The notes under the pieces were generated by a model that saw only the letters and a program-made list of their open reading frames with translations, made no database searches and was not told where the DNA came from. A program made the position numbers and the translations under genes. Of a stretch of 55,139 nucleotides of DNA, positions 24,964 through 33,683 are shown in pieces (position 1 is the first letter of the stretch; every line of letters begins with the position of its first letter). Source of the DNA: Nitrospiraceae bacterium (lineage in GTDB: Bacteria; Nitrospirota; Nitrospiria; Nitrospirales; Nitrospiraceae); NCBI GenBank assembly GCA_919902665.1, contig CAKKRK010000180.1:1-55139 (forward strand), given 5' to 3'.

Positions 24964-25160
24964 TTTTGCTCCACTGTCTCATCACGCGAGTCCGCACGAA
25001 ATTCGGACGGGGTAAACATTAGCAACACTATCCATGTATCGCACACGCGCATCACGTCACTTTTCTTCTGCTCGGCTCATGCGTCAAGACGGCGCCGGCT
25101 TGGCAAAGAGGTCCACCCTTCACCTTGACAAAGCTTGAAACCGGGTGCTACCACCGTCAA

Positions 25161-25937
25161 ATGGTGGGAACCGACCGTCAACCATTGACACAAGATTCCA
25201 AAGCCCCGGCAAAGGTGGTGTCTACCTGGTCCGGCCAGGCCCGCGAAGAGGCCGTGCAGCGGATGTTCACCTCCATCGCGGGCGTCTACGACCTCAACAA
25301 CACGCTGTTGAGTTTCGGCCTGCATTACCATTGGAAGAAGATTACCGCGTCCTTTATTACGCCCGTCGGACGGGGGACCGCACTCGACGTCGGGTCCGGC
25401 ACGGCCGACCTCGCCCTTCTACTCGAGTCTCGAATGGGACCCAAGGGACGTGTGATCGCATCAGACCTGAACTATGCGATGCTGGCCGAAGGCCTCAAAA
25501 AGATCGGTAGCAAAGGACTCGCCGACAAGATCACCTGTCTGCAGGCCAGTGCGGAACATCTGGGATTCGGGGACAATACCTTCGACGCAGTCACCACCGG
25601 CTTTTGCATGCGCAACGTCGGGGATTTACCAGGTGCCGTGCGAGAAATTCGCCGTGTCATGAAACCCGGTGGGCGCTTTGTGTGCTTGGAGTTTTCGCGT
25701 CCGGTATTCGGTTGGTTACGAACATTGTACGATTGGTATTCGTTCAAACTACTGCCCTGGGTCGGTACCATCGTCGCCCGTGATCGCACCGGCGTCTACG
25801 AGTACCTTCCCGCGTCCATCCGGACATTTCCCGACCAAGAACGGTTATGCCAAGTTCTACGCGATGCCGGGTTTCGTCAGGTGTCGTACAAGAACCTCAG
25901 CGGCGGCATTGTCGCAATACACGTCGCCACGAAATGA
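25161..25937 (+). CDS. ubiE: UbiE/MenG-type quinone C-methyltransferase
   Basis: S-adenosylmethionine-dependent methyltransferase of 258 residues for the C-methylation step of menaquinone or ubiquinone synthesis. Features: VQRMFTSIAGVYDLNNTLLS (family start), the SAM-binding loop LDVGSGTADLAL, DLNYAMLAEG, TTGFCMRNVGD, and the MKPGGRFVCLEFS segment. The ATG at 25161 is preferred for family length; a TTG at 25125 in the same frame is possible. It is divergent from uvrA and begins the plus-strand group leading into two radical SAM genes. In this lineage menaquinone is the more likely product, which is inference. Confidence 0.9.
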   Translation: MVGTDRQPLTQDSKAPAKVVSTWSGQAREEAVQRMFTSIAGVYDLNNTLLSFGLHYHWKKITASFITPVGRGTALDVGSGTADLALLLESRMGPKGRVIASDLNYAMLAEGLKKIGSKGLADKITCLQASAEHLGFGDNTFDAVTTGFCMRNVGDLPGAVREIRRVMKPGGRFVCLEFSRPVFGWLRTLYDWYSFKLLPWVGTIVARDRTGVYEYLPASIRTFPDQERLCQVLRDAGFRQVSYKNLSGGIVAIHVATK

Positions 25938-26021
25938 GAGTGCTCACGTTAACGAGGTAGCAAGTCATTAGATCCTTGAGATTGAAACTTTCCCACCTTT
26001 CAACGTGATAACGTCTCGGCC

Positions 26022-27644
26022 ATGACTTCGATTCTCTACATCTTCCTCCCCTGCAAGATGGTCTATCCCATTGGGATCACCTACTTGGCGGATTTTATCC
26101 ACCGGCGGAAACCAGATGTACGTCAGCGCATTCTCGATCTCTCGTTGTTCCCAGTCGCGCAGCGCGGCCAAGCCATCCGCGACGCCGCGACGGAGTTCAA
26201 GCCGGACCTGGTCTGCTTCTCATGGCGGGACATTCAAATCTTTTCACCGCATGAGGGCGATTCGTCGTTAGAGCATGCGTTTAATTTCTATTTTGCCAGC
26301 AACCCGTTCAAGCGAATCACCGCCTCCATCGCAGGCGTCAAGCAGCTCTATCGCTATTACAATCACATCTATACGATCCTGTCGTACCCGGCGCTGATCC
26401 GCAAGGAGTTCCCCAAATCCCAGATCATGATCGGCGGCGGAGCCTTTACGGCGTTTGCCGATCAGTTGATCGAAAAACTCCCGGAAGGCACAATCGGCAT
26501 CCTTGGCGAAGGGGAAGACGCCATCCTGAAGGTCATTGAAGGCCGCTCGATTGAAGATGAGCGGTACATTGTCAAAGAAGGTAACCAGATCCGAAAAGGC
26601 CAGCAGGGTTCCCCCGCGCTGTTAGATGCGCTCACGGTCGATCTGCCCTATCTCACCTCGATCTTCCCTCAATATGGGAAATATATTGGTGAATCGATCG
26701 GTGTGCAATCCAAGCGAGGCTGCCCCTATGACTGCGCCTTCTGCCTCTATCCCTACATTGAAGGCAAGCGGGTGCGGTACCGGCCACCGGAGATGGTCGT
26801 CAAAGATATTTCGCAACATTACCATCAGTGGGGTGCCCGTCGTTTCTGGTTCACAGATGCCCAATTCATTACGGGCAAGGAAGCCTATCCGCAATGTACG
26901 GAAATCCTTGAGCGAATTGTGGCGGAAAAACTCGAGATCGAGTGGTCCGGCTACATCAGAACCTCATTGATTACCCCTGAGTTTGCCAAGCTGATGGTCC
27001 GTTCTGGGGTCGGCGACTTGGAGGTGGCCATCACCTCCGGTTCACAGGAGGTCCTGAACAATCTCCACATGGGATTCAAGCTGGAACGTTTGTACGATGG
27101 CTGCCGCTATTTGGCAGAGGCCGGCTTCAAGGGCAAGGTCATCCTCAACTATTCCCTCAATAGCCCTAAGGAGACGGAAGAGAGCCTGCTTCAAAGTGTC
27201 GAGTCCTACAAGATGGTGGCCTCGATTCTTGGCGAAGAGCGTGTGTTTCCGTTGATGTTTTTCTTAGGCATCCAGCCAAATACCGACCTAGAACAACGCC
27301 TACTGGAAGAGGGGTATTTGTCCGCCGGCTATAACCCCTTGATGCTGACGCCGACCAGTATCAGGAAGCTTCTCTATAACCCTGCCCCTCTCAACAAGAT
27401 TATCGCCAAGGCTTGTCTCCGCGCCTGGGAACGGAAGCAAGGTAGCCGCGATCCCCGTCGATGGACCGGATCCCTATCCCAGTCATCGGGAGAACCGGCC
27501 TATGCCGACCAAAACCTTAGCAGAGGGATCGAAGGCAATTCCGGGCGGGATGCCTTGCTTTCGATCGAGGAAATCATCCGCTCCAGCAGACCAACCCCCT
27601 CGGCTTCACAGATGGCTGAACCAAGAGCCACCTCTACCAGGTGA
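26022..27644 (+). CDS. B12-binding radical SAM protein
   Basis: A 540-residue enzyme with an N-terminal cobalamin-binding-like fold (about residues 1-190; GGGAFTAFAD, ILGEGEDAI) and a radical SAM core with the 4Fe-4S ligands in CPYDCAFC at about residue 238, then FTDAQFITG and later barrel strands. This layout is that of BchE- and hopanoid-type enzymes that methylate or cyclise unactivated carbons. The TIM-barrel is complete, and the last 80 or so residues are a Ser/Arg-rich tail unlike the rest. It follows ubiE by 84 bp and precedes the Usp/PCP_red gene. The substrate is unknown; its placement next to PCP_red proteins makes tetrapyrrole or quinone chemistry worth testing. Confidence 0.85.
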   Translation: MTSILYIFLPCKMVYPIGITYLADFIHRRKPDVRQRILDLSLFPVAQRGQAIRDAATEFKPDLVCFSWRDIQIFSPHEGDSSLEHAFNFYFASNPFKRITASIAGVKQLYRYYNHIYTILSYPALIRKEFPKSQIMIGGGAFTAFADQLIEKLPEGTIGILGEGEDAILKVIEGRSIEDERYIVKEGNQIRKGQQGSPALLDALTVDLPYLTSIFPQYGKYIGESIGVQSKRGCPYDCAFCLYPYIEGKRVRYRPPEMVVKDISQHYHQWGARRFWFTDAQFITGKEAYPQCTEILERIVAEKLEIEWSGYIRTSLITPEFAKLMVRSGVGDLEVAITSGSQEVLNNLHMGFKLERLYDGCRYLAEAGFKGKVILNYSLNSPKETEESLLQSVESYKMVASILGEERVFPLMFFLGIQPNTDLEQRLLEEGYLSAGYNPLMLTPTSIRKLLYNPAPLNKIIAKACLRAWERKQGSRDPRRWTGSLSQSSGEPAYADQNLSRGIEGNSGRDALLSIEEIIRSSRPTPSASQMAEPRATSTR

Positions 27645-27845: not shown

Positions 27846-29912
27846 ATGTATAAGACAATCTATATTCCGGTCGATAACTCTGACCATTCGAATACCGCAG
27901 TGGATGTCGGCGTTCATTTGGCAAAAACCTTCGGCTCCAAGATCGTAGGGAGCCATGTCTACGCCGCGAAGATGCATGATAAACGCTTCAAGCAGATGGA
28001 AGCGGGCCTCCCGGAGGAATACCATGACGAGAAGGAGCTTGACCGTCAGCGCCAGATCCACGACTCGCTGATTACCCGAGGACTCCAAATCATCACTGAC
28101 TCCTACCTTGACTACGTCGACAAGAAATGTAACGAAGCGAATCTCCCCATTGAACGGCGATCACTCGAAGGACGTAACTGGAAGGTGCTGGCCGAGGACA
28201 TCAACACCAACGGGTATGACCTCGTCATCATGGGCGCTTTGGGGGTCGGAGCGGTCAAAGACAGCGTCATCGGCAGTAACACAGAGCGCGTGGTCCGCCG
28301 CGTCCGTAACTCCGACATGCTGATCATTAAGAACGTTCAGCCACTAACTGGCGGAAAGATCGTCGTGGCTGTCGACGGAAGCCCCTACTCGTTCGGCGGA
28401 CTGATGACCGGCTTAGCGCTCGGCAAGGCCTTCAATATGCCAGTGGAAGCGATTTCGGCCTTCGATCCCTACTTCCACTACGCGGCATTCCACAGTATTT
28501 CTGGTGTTCTGAACGAAGAAGCCGGCAAAGTCTTTCGTTTCAAAGAACAAGAAAAACTGCACGAAGAAATTATCGACAGCGGCTTGGCTAAGATCTACCA
28601 GTCTCATTTGGACATTTCCCGCGAAATCGCCCAGGCCGAGCAGACAGATGTGAAAACGACATTGCTGGACGGCAAAGCATTCGAAAAAATCATTCAGTAC
28701 GTCCGGAAGGATGTCCCGGCCTTGCTCATCGTCGGGCGCATCGGCGTCCATAGCGACGAGGACATGGACGTCGGTAGCAACACCGAGAATCTGTTGAGGA
28801 GCGCCCCCTGTAATGTGCTGATCTCCAACCGCAAATACGTGCCTCCGATCGATACACAAGCCGAGTACACCATTGCCTGGACGGAAGAAGCGCTGCGGCG
28901 GATGGAAAAGATCCCCGTCTTCGCGCGCGGCGTGGCAAAAACGGCTATTCATCGATATGCCATCGAAAAAGGGCATACCATCATCAGTAATACCGTCGTT
29001 GACACCGCGATCGGACACATTCTTCCAAAAGGTGCCATGGACGCTATGCGTGCGCTTGGCGGCAGCTTGGACGCAGCGGGTATCGACCGAGACAAGATGC
29101 AAGCCGATGAGGGCGTGACCAAAGATCTTATGGGTCCGACATTGAGCGGAATCATGACCCAGATCGTTGAGGAGAAACCCAAAGAGATCAGCGCCTCCAC
29201 ACAAGCCTACCTAGACCGCATGGGGCAAACCTATTTCGTCTGTGACGGATGCGGCTACATCGGGAAGGGAGACAGCCCGGTCAAATGTCCGGTGTGCAGT
29301 GCGGATGGGACAAAATTCAAACAGGTCGATAAGAAGATTTTCGAAGTAGCCGCGACAACTGAAGGTGAATTGGAAACGGACGTGGCCTACGACGACGTGC
29401 CAATGCAATGGACCAAGGATGCGAAAGAAGCAATCCGTGCCGTGCCGGCCGGCTTTCAGCGGAGACGTGCGAAGGCCAGGATTGAAAAGAGCGCGCGGAA
29501 ATTAGGCATGACGACCATCACGCTTGAATATGCGGCGCCGACCATTCAAGAGGCCGCATCCGAAGACTATACGCCGATTTTCTCCAACAAAGGCACCGGC
29601 ACCTCGCCGGTCGCGGAAGCCACCGTTGCAGCGTCGAACGGGAATGAGGCGAATGGTCATGTCGAAGCCGCCTCACCCTATACCTGGACAGACGACGCAC
29701 AAGCCAGATTGGATCGAGCTCCGGAAGGCTTCATGCGGGATTGCACCAGATCGCTCATTCTCAAGCATGCCGAGAAAATCGGCGCGACCCTGATCACGAT
29801 TGAGGTCGCCGATGAAGGGATCGAGCAGGCAAAGGGGTATATGGCCGAAGCGATGAAGACTGGTAATCTCAAGGACATGATTGCCGACCTCACCGGAAAA
29901 GGACGCGGATAA
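27846..29912 (+). CDS. Fusion protein: two Usp domains, zinc ribbon and three PCP_red domains
   Basis: A 688-residue soluble protein. Two universal-stress-protein domains come first (about residues 1-163, with MYKTIYIPVDNSDHS and GSNTERVVR; and 168-331, with KIVVAVDGSPYS and GSNTENLLR). Then three copies of the small PCP_red domain known from the C terminus of protochlorophyllide reductase subunit BchB follow, at about 344-392 (AWTEEALRRMEKIPVFARG), 517-560 (QWTKDAKEAIRAVPAGF) and 611-660 (TWTDDAQARLDRAPEGF). A rubredoxin-like four-cysteine ribbon (CDGCGY, CPVC) lies at about 465-487. RBS AAGGAGG precedes the ATG. The next gene ends in a fourth PCP_red copy, tying the two together. Function unknown; a nucleotide-sensing redox adaptor is one idea. 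Confidence 0.88.
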   Translation: MYKTIYIPVDNSDHSNTAVDVGVHLAKTFGSKIVGSHVYAAKMHDKRFKQMEAGLPEEYHDEKELDRQRQIHDSLITRGLQIITDSYLDYVDKKCNEANLPIERRSLEGRNWKVLAEDINTNGYDLVIMGALGVGAVKDSVIGSNTERVVRRVRNSDMLIIKNVQPLTGGKIVVAVDGSPYSFGGLMTGLALGKAFNMPVEAISAFDPYFHYAAFHSISGVLNEEAGKVFRFKEQEKLHEEIIDSGLAKIYQSHLDISREIAQAEQTDVKTTLLDGKAFEKIIQYVRKDVPALLIVGRIGVHSDEDMDVGSNTENLLRSAPCNVLISNRKYVPPIDTQAEYTIAWTEEALRRMEKIPVFARGVAKTAIHRYAIEKGHTIISNTVVDTAIGHILPKGAMDAMRALGGSLDAAGIDRDKMQADEGVTKDLMGPTLSGIMTQIVEEKPKEISASTQAYLDRMGQTYFVCDGCGYIGKGDSPVKCPVCSADGTKFKQVDKKIFEVAATTEGELETDVAYDDVPMQWTKDAKEAIRAVPAGFQRRRAKARIEKSARKLGMTTITLEYAAPTIQEAASEDYTPIFSNKGTGTSPVAEATVAASNGNEANGHVEAASPYTWTDDAQARLDRAPEGFMRDCTRSLILKHAEKIGATLITIEVADEGIEQAKGYMAEAMKTGNLKDMIADLTGKGRG

Positions 29913-29995
29913 GTTTCGCATGCTGAGCTTTTGGTGCTGGCCCCCAGCGCCTTCCTCTGACGAGTCTTCGTTCTCAGCACCCGATACAATACACC

Positions 29996-31393
29996 ATGGG
30001 TAAATCTCTTCCTATCTTCAATGGTCCTTCAGGTGTCTTGGGCTCTTTGCAGCAACAAATTGCCCAGTTCTTCACCCCCACTCCAAAGGGGGAGGGGCCG
30101 TTTGATGGCCGGACAGTTGACGACTTCAAGCCCTACCTCGTTGCGCTAAACCTGACCAAGCGTTGCAACCTCAAATGCGATCACTGTTATCTTGATGCGA
30201 CAACCAAAGCAGCTGGTGGGGACGACGAGCTGAGCACCGAAGAGTGCTACCGGCTCATTGAACAGATCGCAGAAGTGAATAAGGGATGCCTTCTTGTCAT
30301 TACTGGTGGCGAACCACTGGTGCGTCCTGACATTCTCGACATTGCTCGTTACGCCGTTAAACTTGGCTTTATGGTGGTCTTCGGCACAAACGGGATGCTG
30401 ATCGATGACCAGATGGCCAAAACGCTTGTAGAAATCGGCGTGATGGGTGTTGGCATCAGCATTGATTCATTGGACGCAGTGAAACACAATACGTTCCGTG
30501 GCGTTCCAGGAGCGTGGGAAGCTGCGGTAGCCGGCATTGAAGCCAGCAAGCGGAATGGCCTCCAATTTCAAGTGCATTTCAGTGCTCAGCCGATGAACTA
30601 TCGAGAGCTGCCTGAAGTCATTGACTGGGCGCACCGACTTGGCGCCCGTGTCATGAACGTGTTCTTTATGGTGTGTACGGGACGAGGCGAAGAGCTGACG
30701 GATATCACTCCCGCTCAGTATGAAGAGGTCCTTGGCTACCTCGTTGACTGCCAAGATAATTACAAAGGCATGTTGGTCCGTGCCCGTTGCGCTCCGCACT
30801 TCAAACGGCTGGCCTATGAGAAAGACCCGAACTCCCCAATCACCAAGGCAACTGGATATATGGGGGGAGGATGCCTGGCTGGCACCAACTATGCCCGAGT
30901 GACGCCGAACGGTGAGTTAACCCCTTGTCCCTATATGCCGCTGTCGGCAGGGAATATCCGTCAACAGAGCTTCGTTGATCTCTGGGAACGATCGGATATC
31001 TTCAACTCCTTTCGCTATCCCCAACTCAAGGGGAAATGTGGTGATTGCGAATACACTGACATCTGCGGGGGATGCCGCGCCCGCCCCTATGTCGACCACG
31101 GCGACTGGCTGGATGAAGATCAGTGGTGCCTCTACACCCCGAAAGGCGGCGAGAAAATTAAGGTGGCGTTCAATGTCTTGGAAGAAACCGATATCGCGTG
31201 GGACGATGCGTCTGCTCTCCGATTGAGCCGTATCCCCTACTTCCTACGTGCGATGGTGAAGAAAGGCGTGGAAAAGCACGCCCGCGAAAACAATGTACCG
31301 CTTATCACCGTTGAACTCATGGAAGAGCTACGCAAGAAACGATTCGGCAATGACGCACCTGTCTTTAACTTTGACGTAAAGGACAAGGGATAA
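29996..31393 (+). CDS. Radical SAM/SPASM protein (NirJ/AhbC/AhbD-like) with C-terminal PCP_red domain
   Basis: A 465-residue enzyme. The radical SAM motif is CNLKCDHCYLD at about residue 54, followed by the TGGEPLVRPD strand. A SPASM-type C-terminal cluster region (CGDCEYTDICGGCRARPY, then DQWC) carries the cysteines for auxiliary Fe-S clusters, in the arrangement of heme d1 and alternative heme pathway enzymes NirJ, AhbC and AhbD. The last 60 residues (AWDDASALRLSRIPYFLRAM, KHARENNVPLITVE) form a PCP_red domain as in the preceding protein. It is 83 bp downstream of that gene. A role in tetrapyrrole modification is a family-based inference; peptide maturation is the main alternative. Confidence 0.88.
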   Translation: MGKSLPIFNGPSGVLGSLQQQIAQFFTPTPKGEGPFDGRTVDDFKPYLVALNLTKRCNLKCDHCYLDATTKAAGGDDELSTEECYRLIEQIAEVNKGCLLVITGGEPLVRPDILDIARYAVKLGFMVVFGTNGMLIDDQMAKTLVEIGVMGVGISIDSLDAVKHNTFRGVPGAWEAAVAGIEASKRNGLQFQVHFSAQPMNYRELPEVIDWAHRLGARVMNVFFMVCTGRGEELTDITPAQYEEVLGYLVDCQDNYKGMLVRARCAPHFKRLAYEKDPNSPITKATGYMGGGCLAGTNYARVTPNGELTPCPYMPLSAGNIRQQSFVDLWERSDIFNSFRYPQLKGKCGDCEYTDICGGCRARPYVDHGDWLDEDQWCLYTPKGGEKIKVAFNVLEETDIAWDDASALRLSRIPYFLRAMVKKGVEKHARENNVPLITVELMEELRKKRFGNDAPVFNFDVKDKG

Positions 31394-31469
31394 GGCGCCA
31401 GGGGTGAAGACCTAGAGGCCCATCCTCAAATCCCCCACTCCTTACGATTCTCTTCTGCCTGGTTTCCAA

Positions 31470-31979
31470 ATGGACGCGCTCCAAAGTATCACCACCGATC
31501 TGAACACCCTCATTCCGATCATCAATCACTGGTTTCATCTACTTTCAGCGATCATTTGGATCGGCGGCTTGGCATTTCTCGTCATGGCGGTGACACCCGG
31601 ACTAGAGAAAGCCGTTCCAAAGGATCAGATCAAACCCATCACGGATATTTTTTACCGGCACTACAAGAAAGTCGCCGGCATTCTCGTAGTCGTCCTGCTG
31701 TTCACCGGCGGTGTGAATCTCCACTACGTCAATCAGGTCATTACTTCACAAACGGGAAGCGGGATCCAGTACCACTCCAAGTACCTCATCGTCTTCATGA
31801 TTAAGCTTCTTCTTGTGCTGGGGCTTCTCACACTGTTCCTCTACACCGTCATTTTTAAGTCAGACGATGAAGCCGAGGAGGGAGAGTCCTACGAGGTTAT
31901 TCCCTTCCAGCGCGCTGCCCTGTGGATGGGGTTCTTCATTATCCTCTGCGCCGCAGCCATGAAGCACCTGCATCAATAA
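31470..31979 (+). CDS. CopD-like integral membrane protein
   Basis: A 169-residue protein with four membrane helices (LLSAIIWIGGLAFLVMAV, VAGILVVVLLFTGGVNL, IVFMIKLLLVLGLLTLFLYTVIF, AALWMGFFIILCAAAMKHL). Conserved-looking His (NHWFHLL, YHSKYL) and the FTGGVN motif fit the CopD/HemJ-like group, whose members transport copper or oxidise protoporphyrinogen. It ends the plus-strand radical SAM group, 76 bp after the SPASM gene. The two paired His residues could hold heme. No clear ribosome site precedes the ATG. Confidence 0.75.
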   Translation: MDALQSITTDLNTLIPIINHWFHLLSAIIWIGGLAFLVMAVTPGLEKAVPKDQIKPITDIFYRHYKKVAGILVVVLLFTGGVNLHYVNQVITSQTGSGIQYHSKYLIVFMIKLLLVLGLLTLFLYTVIFKSDDEAEEGESYEVIPFQRAALWMGFFIILCAAAMKHLHQ

Positions 31980-32924: not shown

Positions 32925-33683
32925 TCACTTAGACCGGCTGAGGCCTAGAGCGCGCTTGAAGACCGCAGTGAAACCGAAATAGCCGAAGGAGTCTTTGAGG
33001 TTGGAATAGAGCCGCTTGATGGTGCCCATCTCAGGATTGGTGACATACTCCATTGTTAAGGCAATCCGTTCCTCACCCTCTCCGAGAGGCGTGACCGCAT
33101 GCCAGAGTTTATCACCGTTGAAAATCACCATATCCCCAGGCTCAGTCACTAGCTCAAGATGGCGGGGTGGCTTGGTTGGATGGTCCTTGAACAGCTCGCA
33201 CACCAGCTTGCACTGGGCTGACCGATCGACAAGCCCCATCAGAATCGTGTACCGAGCGCCCTTGTAGTATGACGTATCGTAATGAAACCCAATGTGGTCG
33301 CCCGGTTCAGTGTAGTAGTAGAGGGCGCAGGAATGGGGATCGTTGTCCGGGCAAAACATCAGCTTCGCCTCAACGAGCCGATTCAGGAATGCCCGGAATG
33401 ACTCGGACCGATAGAGGTCGAGAAAGCGGGGGGCTTTCTCCTGCACAGTATAATAACTAACGCTCCCACCCTTCTTGTGGCCGGGAATGTAGTTTCGATT
33501 GAGTTCTCCCTTCACGCCCTGAGCTTGAGGAACGAGCACTTCCTCTACGAAGGCACGAGGCAAGAACTGTTTAATGACGAGGAACTCGTTCTGATCCCAA
33601 TATTCTTGGTGAAGCCGGTCGAAATCCAAGGCGGTGACCGCTTGGGTGACCCTGTCCGTCACATTGCTCACAAGACTCTGCAC
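32925..33683 (-). CDS. 2-oxoglutarate/Fe(II)-dependent oxygenase
   Basis: A 252-residue enzyme with the double-stranded beta-helix metal site: HYDTSYY gives His-x-Asp, and LWHAVTPLGEGEERIALTMEY gives the distal His and the Arg that binds 2-oxoglutarate. Such enzymes hydroxylate proteins, amino acids or small molecules. It starts with GTG at 33683, with a purine-rich stretch upstream. It is not close to a pathway that would name its substrate. It stands downstream of lolA in the same direction, separated by about 110 bp rich in imperfect ATTGA/TCAAT repeats. Confidence 0.85.
   Translation of the reverse strand: MQSLVSNVTDRVTQAVTALDFDRLHQEYWDQNEFLVIKQFLPRAFVEEVLVPQAQGVKGELNRNYIPGHKKGGSVSYYTVQEKAPRFLDLYRSESFRAFLNRLVEAKLMFCPDNDPHSCALYYYTEPGDHIGFHYDTSYYKGARYTILMGLVDRSAQCKLVCELFKDHPTKPPRHLELVTEPGDMVIFNGDKLWHAVTPLGEGEERIALTMEYVTNPEMGTIKRLYSNLKDSFGYFGFTAVFKRALGLSRSK

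Follow-up and report, generated by a model that had tools for sequence, protein, structure and literature searches.

The PCP_red domain is best known from chlorophyll synthesis, as the C-terminal part of BchB/ChlB of the dark-operative protochlorophyllide oxidoreductase (DPOR), and has been solved in 2kru, 3aek, 2xdq, 2ynm, 8vqi and other structures. Three adjacent genes in the stretch of DNA analysed here (the window: 55,139 nucleotides, contig C180 of the 3.56 Mb Nitrospira genome called G000 below) carry four copies of this domain. The first encodes a fusion of two Usp domains, three PCP_red domains and a ribbon (the Usp protein), the second a radical S-adenosylmethionine (SAM)/SPASM enzyme with a single PCP_red domain (rSAM-PCP_red), and the third a small membrane protein; all are on the same strand, with gaps of 83 and 76 bases. 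The four PCP_red copies score above the curated PF08369 cut-off of 32.5 bits (Table 1), which bears out an earlier note on this DNA that had placed the domain three times in the first protein and once in the second. Nitrospira are nitrite-oxidising bacteria, and across the Nitrospirota rSAM-PCP_red is inherited together with the gene for a bd-like oxidase, a new and testable result. This link was missed in the earlier note, as were three other PCP_red proteins of the genome.

Only the C-terminal PCP_red domain is shared with BchB/ChlB; the Usp protein reaches 69.4 bits against the BchB model, which has a cut-off of 509, and the match is confined to the PCP_red part. The first half of the Usp protein resembles the tandem Usp proteins TTHA0350 (ATP-bound, 3ab8) and Rv2623 (3cis) in fold and in glycine motif spacing, but differs from both in the fused PCP_red domains and ribbon and in conserved His residues within helical inserts. 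For the second protein, the nearest described systems are the heme b synthase AhbD (TIGR04545), likewise a radical SAM and SPASM enzyme, and the heme d1 enzymes NirJ and NirJ2 (TIGR04051, TIGR04055).

The Nitrospira terminal oxidase has been proposed to be bd-like from genome and transcript data, in the accessible text of that study (PMC6606698). An OR-N CydAA' enzyme is described for the Nitrospirales, its oxygen affinity being given as not known in the part of the source available (PMC12342949), and it is from this literature, rather than from a tree, that the bd-like genes here are assigned to the OR-N type. With the bd-like CydA protein of genome G176 as the query, an oxidase gene was found in 84 of 198 Nitrospirota genomes, which are not independent of one another: in all 65 genomes of the one class that includes the Nitrospirales, and in 19 of the 133 outside it. 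The corresponding figures for rSAM-PCP_red are 63/65 and 19/133. Presence was called by score and coverage, with G137, G157, G173 and G181 settled by a follow-up search; G021 (a fragment) and G195 (with a match that ends at residue 383) were scored as having it, and G030, G035 and G045 as lacking it. Over the whole set, 80 genomes have both genes, 4 the oxidase only, 2 rSAM-PCP_red only and 112 neither.

Outside the class, the overlap is 17 genomes (17/2/2/112; Fisher p 2e-17, with ancestry not corrected for). When the oxidase labels were shuffled within families, the mean overlap was 11.8 and only 5 of the 20000 runs came to 17 or more, and for the genomes at least 90% complete (13/2/0/81) an overlap of at least 13 was reached in 13 of 20000 runs. 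Five genomes were entered as single families with a completeness of 0, three of which were later placed in family f18, which holds no case. Within families f25, f26, f27 and f30, the two genes appear and vanish jointly, and they mostly do so in f17. Two of the genomes with the oxidase only (G018, G185) keep 11 and 8 PCP_red domains, and the other two (G030, G069) are 79% and 70% complete.

As a control, NarG/NxrA-like genes were found in 57 of the 198 genomes, with an overlap of 7 outside the class (7/12/4/110), which shuffling reached in 2200 of 20000 runs, and in 950 of 20000 for the complete genomes. Among the class genomes outside the Nitrospirales, the module is in 9/9 and NarG/NxrA-like genes are in 0/9. 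rSAM-PCP_red tracks the bd-like oxidase more tightly than it tracks NarG/NxrA-like genes. Canonical bd CydB is negatively associated with it (3/16/55/59, p=0.011), and therefore the oxidase query does not stand in for cytochrome bd in general. There is also physical linkage. In G174 and G176, 79 and 74 bases separate the bd-like CydA gene from rSAM-PCP_red (PF01654 50.8 bits in G176, cut-off 26.2), and in 12 of the 28 genomes compared, among the matches listed, oxidase and PCP_red genes share a contig, less than 15 kb apart in 9 and 36–88 kb apart in the others. On contig C195 of G000, a PCP_red gene is beside, not between, bd-like genes, about 1 kb from one of them, with a DUF420 gene on its other side. 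The link of the module to the bd-like oxidase is well supported by correlation.

The genes themselves are kept together. All 465 residues of the window rSAM-PCP_red are identical to those of a Nitrospira metagenome-assembled genome, and it is 86–98% identical to many others (N. moscoviensis 90%, N. defluvii 86%). The best 80 of its 131 relatives, with Nitrospira- or Nitrospirae-type titles except for one titled Nitrosospira, were taken as the Nitrospira-type loci, in which the Usp gene adjoins rSAM-PCP_red in 70/70 testable cases and the CopD-like membrane protein gene does so in 73/74. In 36 genomes from the wider Nitrospirota, 35 of them testable (G007 is cut by a contig end), the Usp neighbour is present in 32/35, counting G077 and G111 as adjacent from a reading of their loci, and there is none in G155, G156 and G161. 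Usp and rSAM-PCP_red are a conserved gene pair of non-phototrophs. The proposal of the earlier note that PCP_red ties the two proteins into one module has held, and neither of the outcomes named there as refuting it, PF08369 scores below threshold or genes that do not co-occur in other genomes, was seen. The CopD-like neighbour is found solely in families f1 and f2, plus G117 and G129 at about 30% identity. When plasmids were searched with the enzyme, the matches in the best 25 of 506 records all end by residue 390. Directly after rSAM-PCP_red, four f25 genomes have a common protein of approximately 244–255 amino acids (L150:8551-9285, L123:8451-9218, L151:10388-11149, L153:10560-11291), for which the L150 copy has no Pfam or NCBIfam match.

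In all, G000 holds 12 PCP_red matches, 11 of them above the cut-off, across five proteins. Those beyond the window are a four-copy protein of 338 amino acids and a two-copy protein of 247 amino acids, both on contig C191, the latter adjoining a ParA/Mrp-like ATPase gene, and a two-copy protein on C195. The class-level relative G129 has a single locus (L136) with genes for Usp, rSAM, CopD-like, four-copy PCP_red, CADD-like, zinc-ribbon PCP_red and DUF420-like proteins and a Mrp-type ATPase (PF10609, 241.9 bits). In G008, G049 and G054, the rSAM enzyme extends into three more PCP_red copies (706–730 amino acids), which match, by eye, repeats 2–4 of the four-copy protein. The shared loci and the fusions suggest that the PCP_red proteins work together. 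Zinc-ribbon PCP_red proteins adjoin a Mrp-type ATPase, in most cases recognised by eye, in 6 of the 10 loci read (not in G062, G083, G098 and G150). In one open reading frame in each of the f18 genomes G028 and G037 (L186:5036-6061, L200:5083-6117), PCP_red (54 bits) is fused N-terminally to a domain of the chlorite dismutase (Cld)/coproheme decarboxylase type (69 and 66 bits). A protein like the CADD/heme-oxygenase fold is encoded between two PCP_red genes at L136:8566-9252 (TIGR04305 88 bits, cut-off 200), and a second, by eye, at L204:9731-10501.

The rSAM enzyme has both Radical_SAM (PF04055, 81.9 bits) and SPASM (PF13186, 40.5 bits) domains above their cut-offs. The CX3CX2C cluster motif is C57/C61/C64, and the eight SPASM Cys are C265, C293, C311, C348, C351, C357, C360 and C378; in an alignment of 28 homologues the Cys are invariant, and so, within the PCP_red part, are W402, R409, P414, F416, E426 and T438. 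The SPASM spacing (X27, X17, X36, X2, X5, X2, X17) fits the full AhbD motif, CX20-33CX17CX36-37CX2CX5CX2CX17-35C, in the form given in the accessible text of PMC10452713. The AhbD-type stretch C-A-P-H-x-x-R at residues 265–271 is present in 25/25 PCP_red rSAM enzymes and at least 90% of 12 AhbD proteins; it is absent from the NirJ of Roseibium, the only NirJ compared. From EPR (electron paramagnetic resonance) work on AhbD it was concluded, in the part of the publication available, that a ligand close to the metal of the porphyrin donates electrons (PMC11306076), and by analogy H268 of the window enzyme is a candidate for such a ligand.

Among NCBIfam models, NirJ2 comes nearest to the enzyme with 324.4 bits, followed by AhbD with 317.4 bits, both below the cut-off of 500. 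The enzyme further differs from AhbD in having HCY for HCR after the cluster motif and in its PCP_red tail. Against TIGR04545, seven PCP_red homologues score 295–343 bits and three AhbD-type Nitrospirota proteins 429–522, and in the tree the 12 AhbD-type sequences are a single clade (100/100). Both types coexist in G062, G111 and G176, and therefore the PCP_red type probably does something other than heme b synthesis. AhbD-type genes clustered with HemE-like genes and HemH or HemY were seen in six anaerobic Nitrospirota clusters (L163–L167, L170; HemE and some HemH by eye); AhbD can terminate the coproporphyrin pathway, according to the available part of a review (PMC7242693).

The suggestion in the earlier note that a tetrapyrrole is modified or trafficked has gained circumstantial support, from the AhbD-like active-site residues, the PCP_red-Cld fusion and a HemY paralogue next to the enzyme. 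This last, a protoporphyrinogen oxidase gene (TIGR00562 290–305 bits, cut-off 97.85), directly adjoins rSAM-PCP_red in 3/3 of the f17 genomes that have it (G008, G049, G054); all three have further HemY matches elsewhere, and the second of G008 adjoins HemN and HemH. In G150, the neighbour of the Usp gene is HemL. Ferrochelatase (PF00762) has no match in 3/3 tested f2 genomes (G077, G135, G189), where HemY and Cld matches are present, and these genomes may use a different chelatase.

The reading favoured here, though tentatively and with somewhat less than even confidence, is that the genes are a cytoplasmic maturation module for the bd-like (OR-N/CydAA'-type) oxidase, with the NirJ/AhbD-like rSAM enzyme modifying a tetrapyrrole that the oxidase needs. 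The PCP_red copies would dock the partners and may also hold the tetrapyrrole, as suggested by their company in BchB and by the Cld fusion. Docking would join the rSAM enzyme with the ATP-binding tandem-Usp/ribbon protein, the four-PCP_red protein, the zinc-ribbon PCP_red protein and its Mrp-type Fe-S carrier ATPase, and the membrane protein. Gating of the complex by ATP could fall to the Usp domains, with their retained glycine motif and their likeness to ATP-bound TTHA0350, and the His residues of their inserts could bind metal or heme. The substrate would be coproheme, heme b or a relative, with electrons perhaps supplied via the ribbon and the SPASM clusters, and the His-rich membrane protein or a DUF420-type factor might hand the product to the oxidase. 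A dedicated maturation module, if this is true, would explain what such oxidases need, serve as a marker for those that function and give a lead to their cofactor, and PCP_red would gain a role outside chlorophyll synthesis. The more specific proposal that rSAM-PCP_red makes an undescribed modified heme for OR-N bd-like oxidases, with PCP_red as a general tetrapyrrole-holding module that this respiratory pathway has in common with chlorophyll synthesis and with a Cld-type heme enzyme, is doubtful. No description of a PCP_red module was found in the literature in searches for PCP_red/PF08369 and for Nitrospira with NirJ, judged by title and abstract and covering few subscription journals.

Several observations weigh against the maturation reading. 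Shared ancestry makes up most of the co-inheritance, with 65 of the 198 genomes in one class, and G002 and G008 carry rSAM-PCP_red with no oxidase match. In Nitrospira itself, no oxidase gene adjoins the three genes of the window; the only PCP_red protein encoded next to one is a different one, that on C195. Distant Usp partners (32–35% identity; L122, L123, L149–L153) are without PCP_red, which is carried only by their rSAM enzyme. The NirJ2 and AhbD scores of the window enzyme are far below the equivalog cut-offs of 500 each, and the 25 PCP_red rSAM sequences split into two groups (17 and 8), with a single origin in 16% of bootstrap trees; a single clade for them was not recovered. The top solved-structure matches of the enzyme model (predicted local distance difference test, pLDDT, 77.6; predicted template modelling score, pTM, 0.78) are the peptide-modifying SPASM enzymes SuiB (Z 25.9), PqqE (24.4) and SkfB (24.4), and because of this the fold leaves the substrate unsettled; no solved AhbD or NirJ is among the structure matches listed.

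These folds, with that of anSME, would suit an enzyme that, like many SPASM enzymes, modifies a protein or peptide, for example an oxidase subunit or cytochrome, with PCP_red and Usp as scaffolds and regulators. Post-translational modification of the oxidase would also fit the tracking, but the top profile matches act on porphyrins, the HemY and Cld contexts argue for a tetrapyrrole, and the two gaps between the genes, where no systematic search was made, showed no obvious gene for a precursor peptide; this alternative is unlikely. That the enzyme completes heme b synthesis as its final step, substituting for AhbD on coproheme, was considered first on the absence of HemN (above the cut-off) and HemF, and its AhbD-like residues agree with this. 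In G000, where HemN reaches at best 150.1 bits (cut-off 324.95) and HemF was not found, a coproheme route is likely. The Cld family includes ChdC. G000 has three Cld-family matches (196.7, 190.9 and 129.1 bits) and HemY (315.4 bits) side by side with HemH (266.1 bits), and its coproporphyrin route would be complete if one Cld protein is ChdC. The Nitrospira heme b pathway looks complete without the module, and therefore the enzyme is unlikely to be a heme synthase that the pathway lacks; with the separate AhbD-type genes noted above, and HemN above the cut-off in G008, this role is set low and considered improbable.

A module that builds Fe-S or Mo cofactors for nitrite oxidoreductase (NXR) and nitrate-reductase-like enzymes, and does not serve the oxidase, would account for the distant copies in G111, G174 and G176, which adjoin NarG/NxrA-like, NxrB-like and TorD-like genes, for the Mrp-type ATPases beside zinc-ribbon PCP_red proteins, and for a MoaA-like open reading frame near the G150 locus. 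It is slightly less probable still, given that the module persists where NarG/NxrA-like genes are missing and that their association outside the class is gone under within-family shuffling. The least probable alternative is a unit that senses stress or redox state and is linked to the oxidase only via a shared aerobic life, its Usp-PCP_red protein regulating general metabolism. Multiple Usp proteins, not known to include this one, rose in N. marina at low oxygen, in the available part of that report (PMC8115632), but canonical CydB, which goes with aerobic life as well, shows no positive association, and the conservation of a SPASM enzyme implies that chemistry is done.

In the Usp protein, PF00582 reaches 114.7 bits over two stretches (cut-off 24), and both domains retain the G-2X-G-9X-G-S spacing (G130/G133/G143/S144 and G297/G300/G310/S311), which we take to be the Usp ATP motif. 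H44, H72, H211 and H239, with M51, E52, E62, Q235 and E236, are near-invariant in the helical inserts of both domains, and the His residues, also present in the distant partners without PCP_red, could be a metal or heme site. The two Usp stretches and three PCP_red domains of the predicted fusion were thus found, while its rubredoxin-like ribbon is marginal, falling just below the PF21349 cut-off of 26.5 bits (31.4 bits against the nigerythrin model).

The membrane protein, taken in the earlier note for CopD/HemJ-like, is distantly CopD-like, below the cut-offs (PF05425 24.3 bits, cut-off 32.1; NF033808 41.2, cut-off 195; DUF4149 24.3, cut-off 24.6). The HemJ identity was dropped, PF03653 being absent from its matches at E<=1. 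Its conserved residues are H20, H23, H85, H166 and H168, with K104 and K112.

Table 1. Positions in the window of the three genes and their PCP_red and ribbon segments.
Feature	Positions	Strand	Length or score
Usp-Usp-PCP_red-ribbon-PCP_red-PCP_red protein	27846-29912	+	688 aa; open reading frame confirmed
PCP_red 1 of Usp protein	28878-29009	+	PF08369 53.1 bits
Rubredoxin-like four-Cys ribbon, residues 464-492 of Usp protein	29235-29321	+	RUBY_RBDX 25.2 bits
PCP_red 2 of Usp protein	29409-29528	+	PF08369 41.6 bits
PCP_red 3 of Usp protein	29685-29813	+	PF08369 35.7 bits
Radical SAM/SPASM enzyme with C-terminal PCP_red (rSAM-PCP_red)	29996-31393	+	465 aa; open reading frame confirmed
PCP_red of rSAM enzyme	31199-31333	+	PF08369 52.7 bits
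Small membrane protein, distantly CopD/DUF4149-like	31470-31979	+	169 aa; open reading frame confirmed

Just upstream, at 25125-27644, are mpqE (NF052510 402.9 bits, cut-off 335) and a slr0320-like B12-type radical SAM gene (444.1 bits, cut-off 775), the second of which may belong to methyl-plastoquinone synthesis. They are kept in 62/64 and 63/65 testable Nitrospira loci, and in the neighbouring family f2 five loci (L124–L128) have no match to either, so that the module was rejected as a part of that pathway. Downstream, on the minus strand at 32925-33683, there is a 2-oxoglutarate-Fe(II) oxygenase-like protein (HalD 33.4 bits, cut-off 26).

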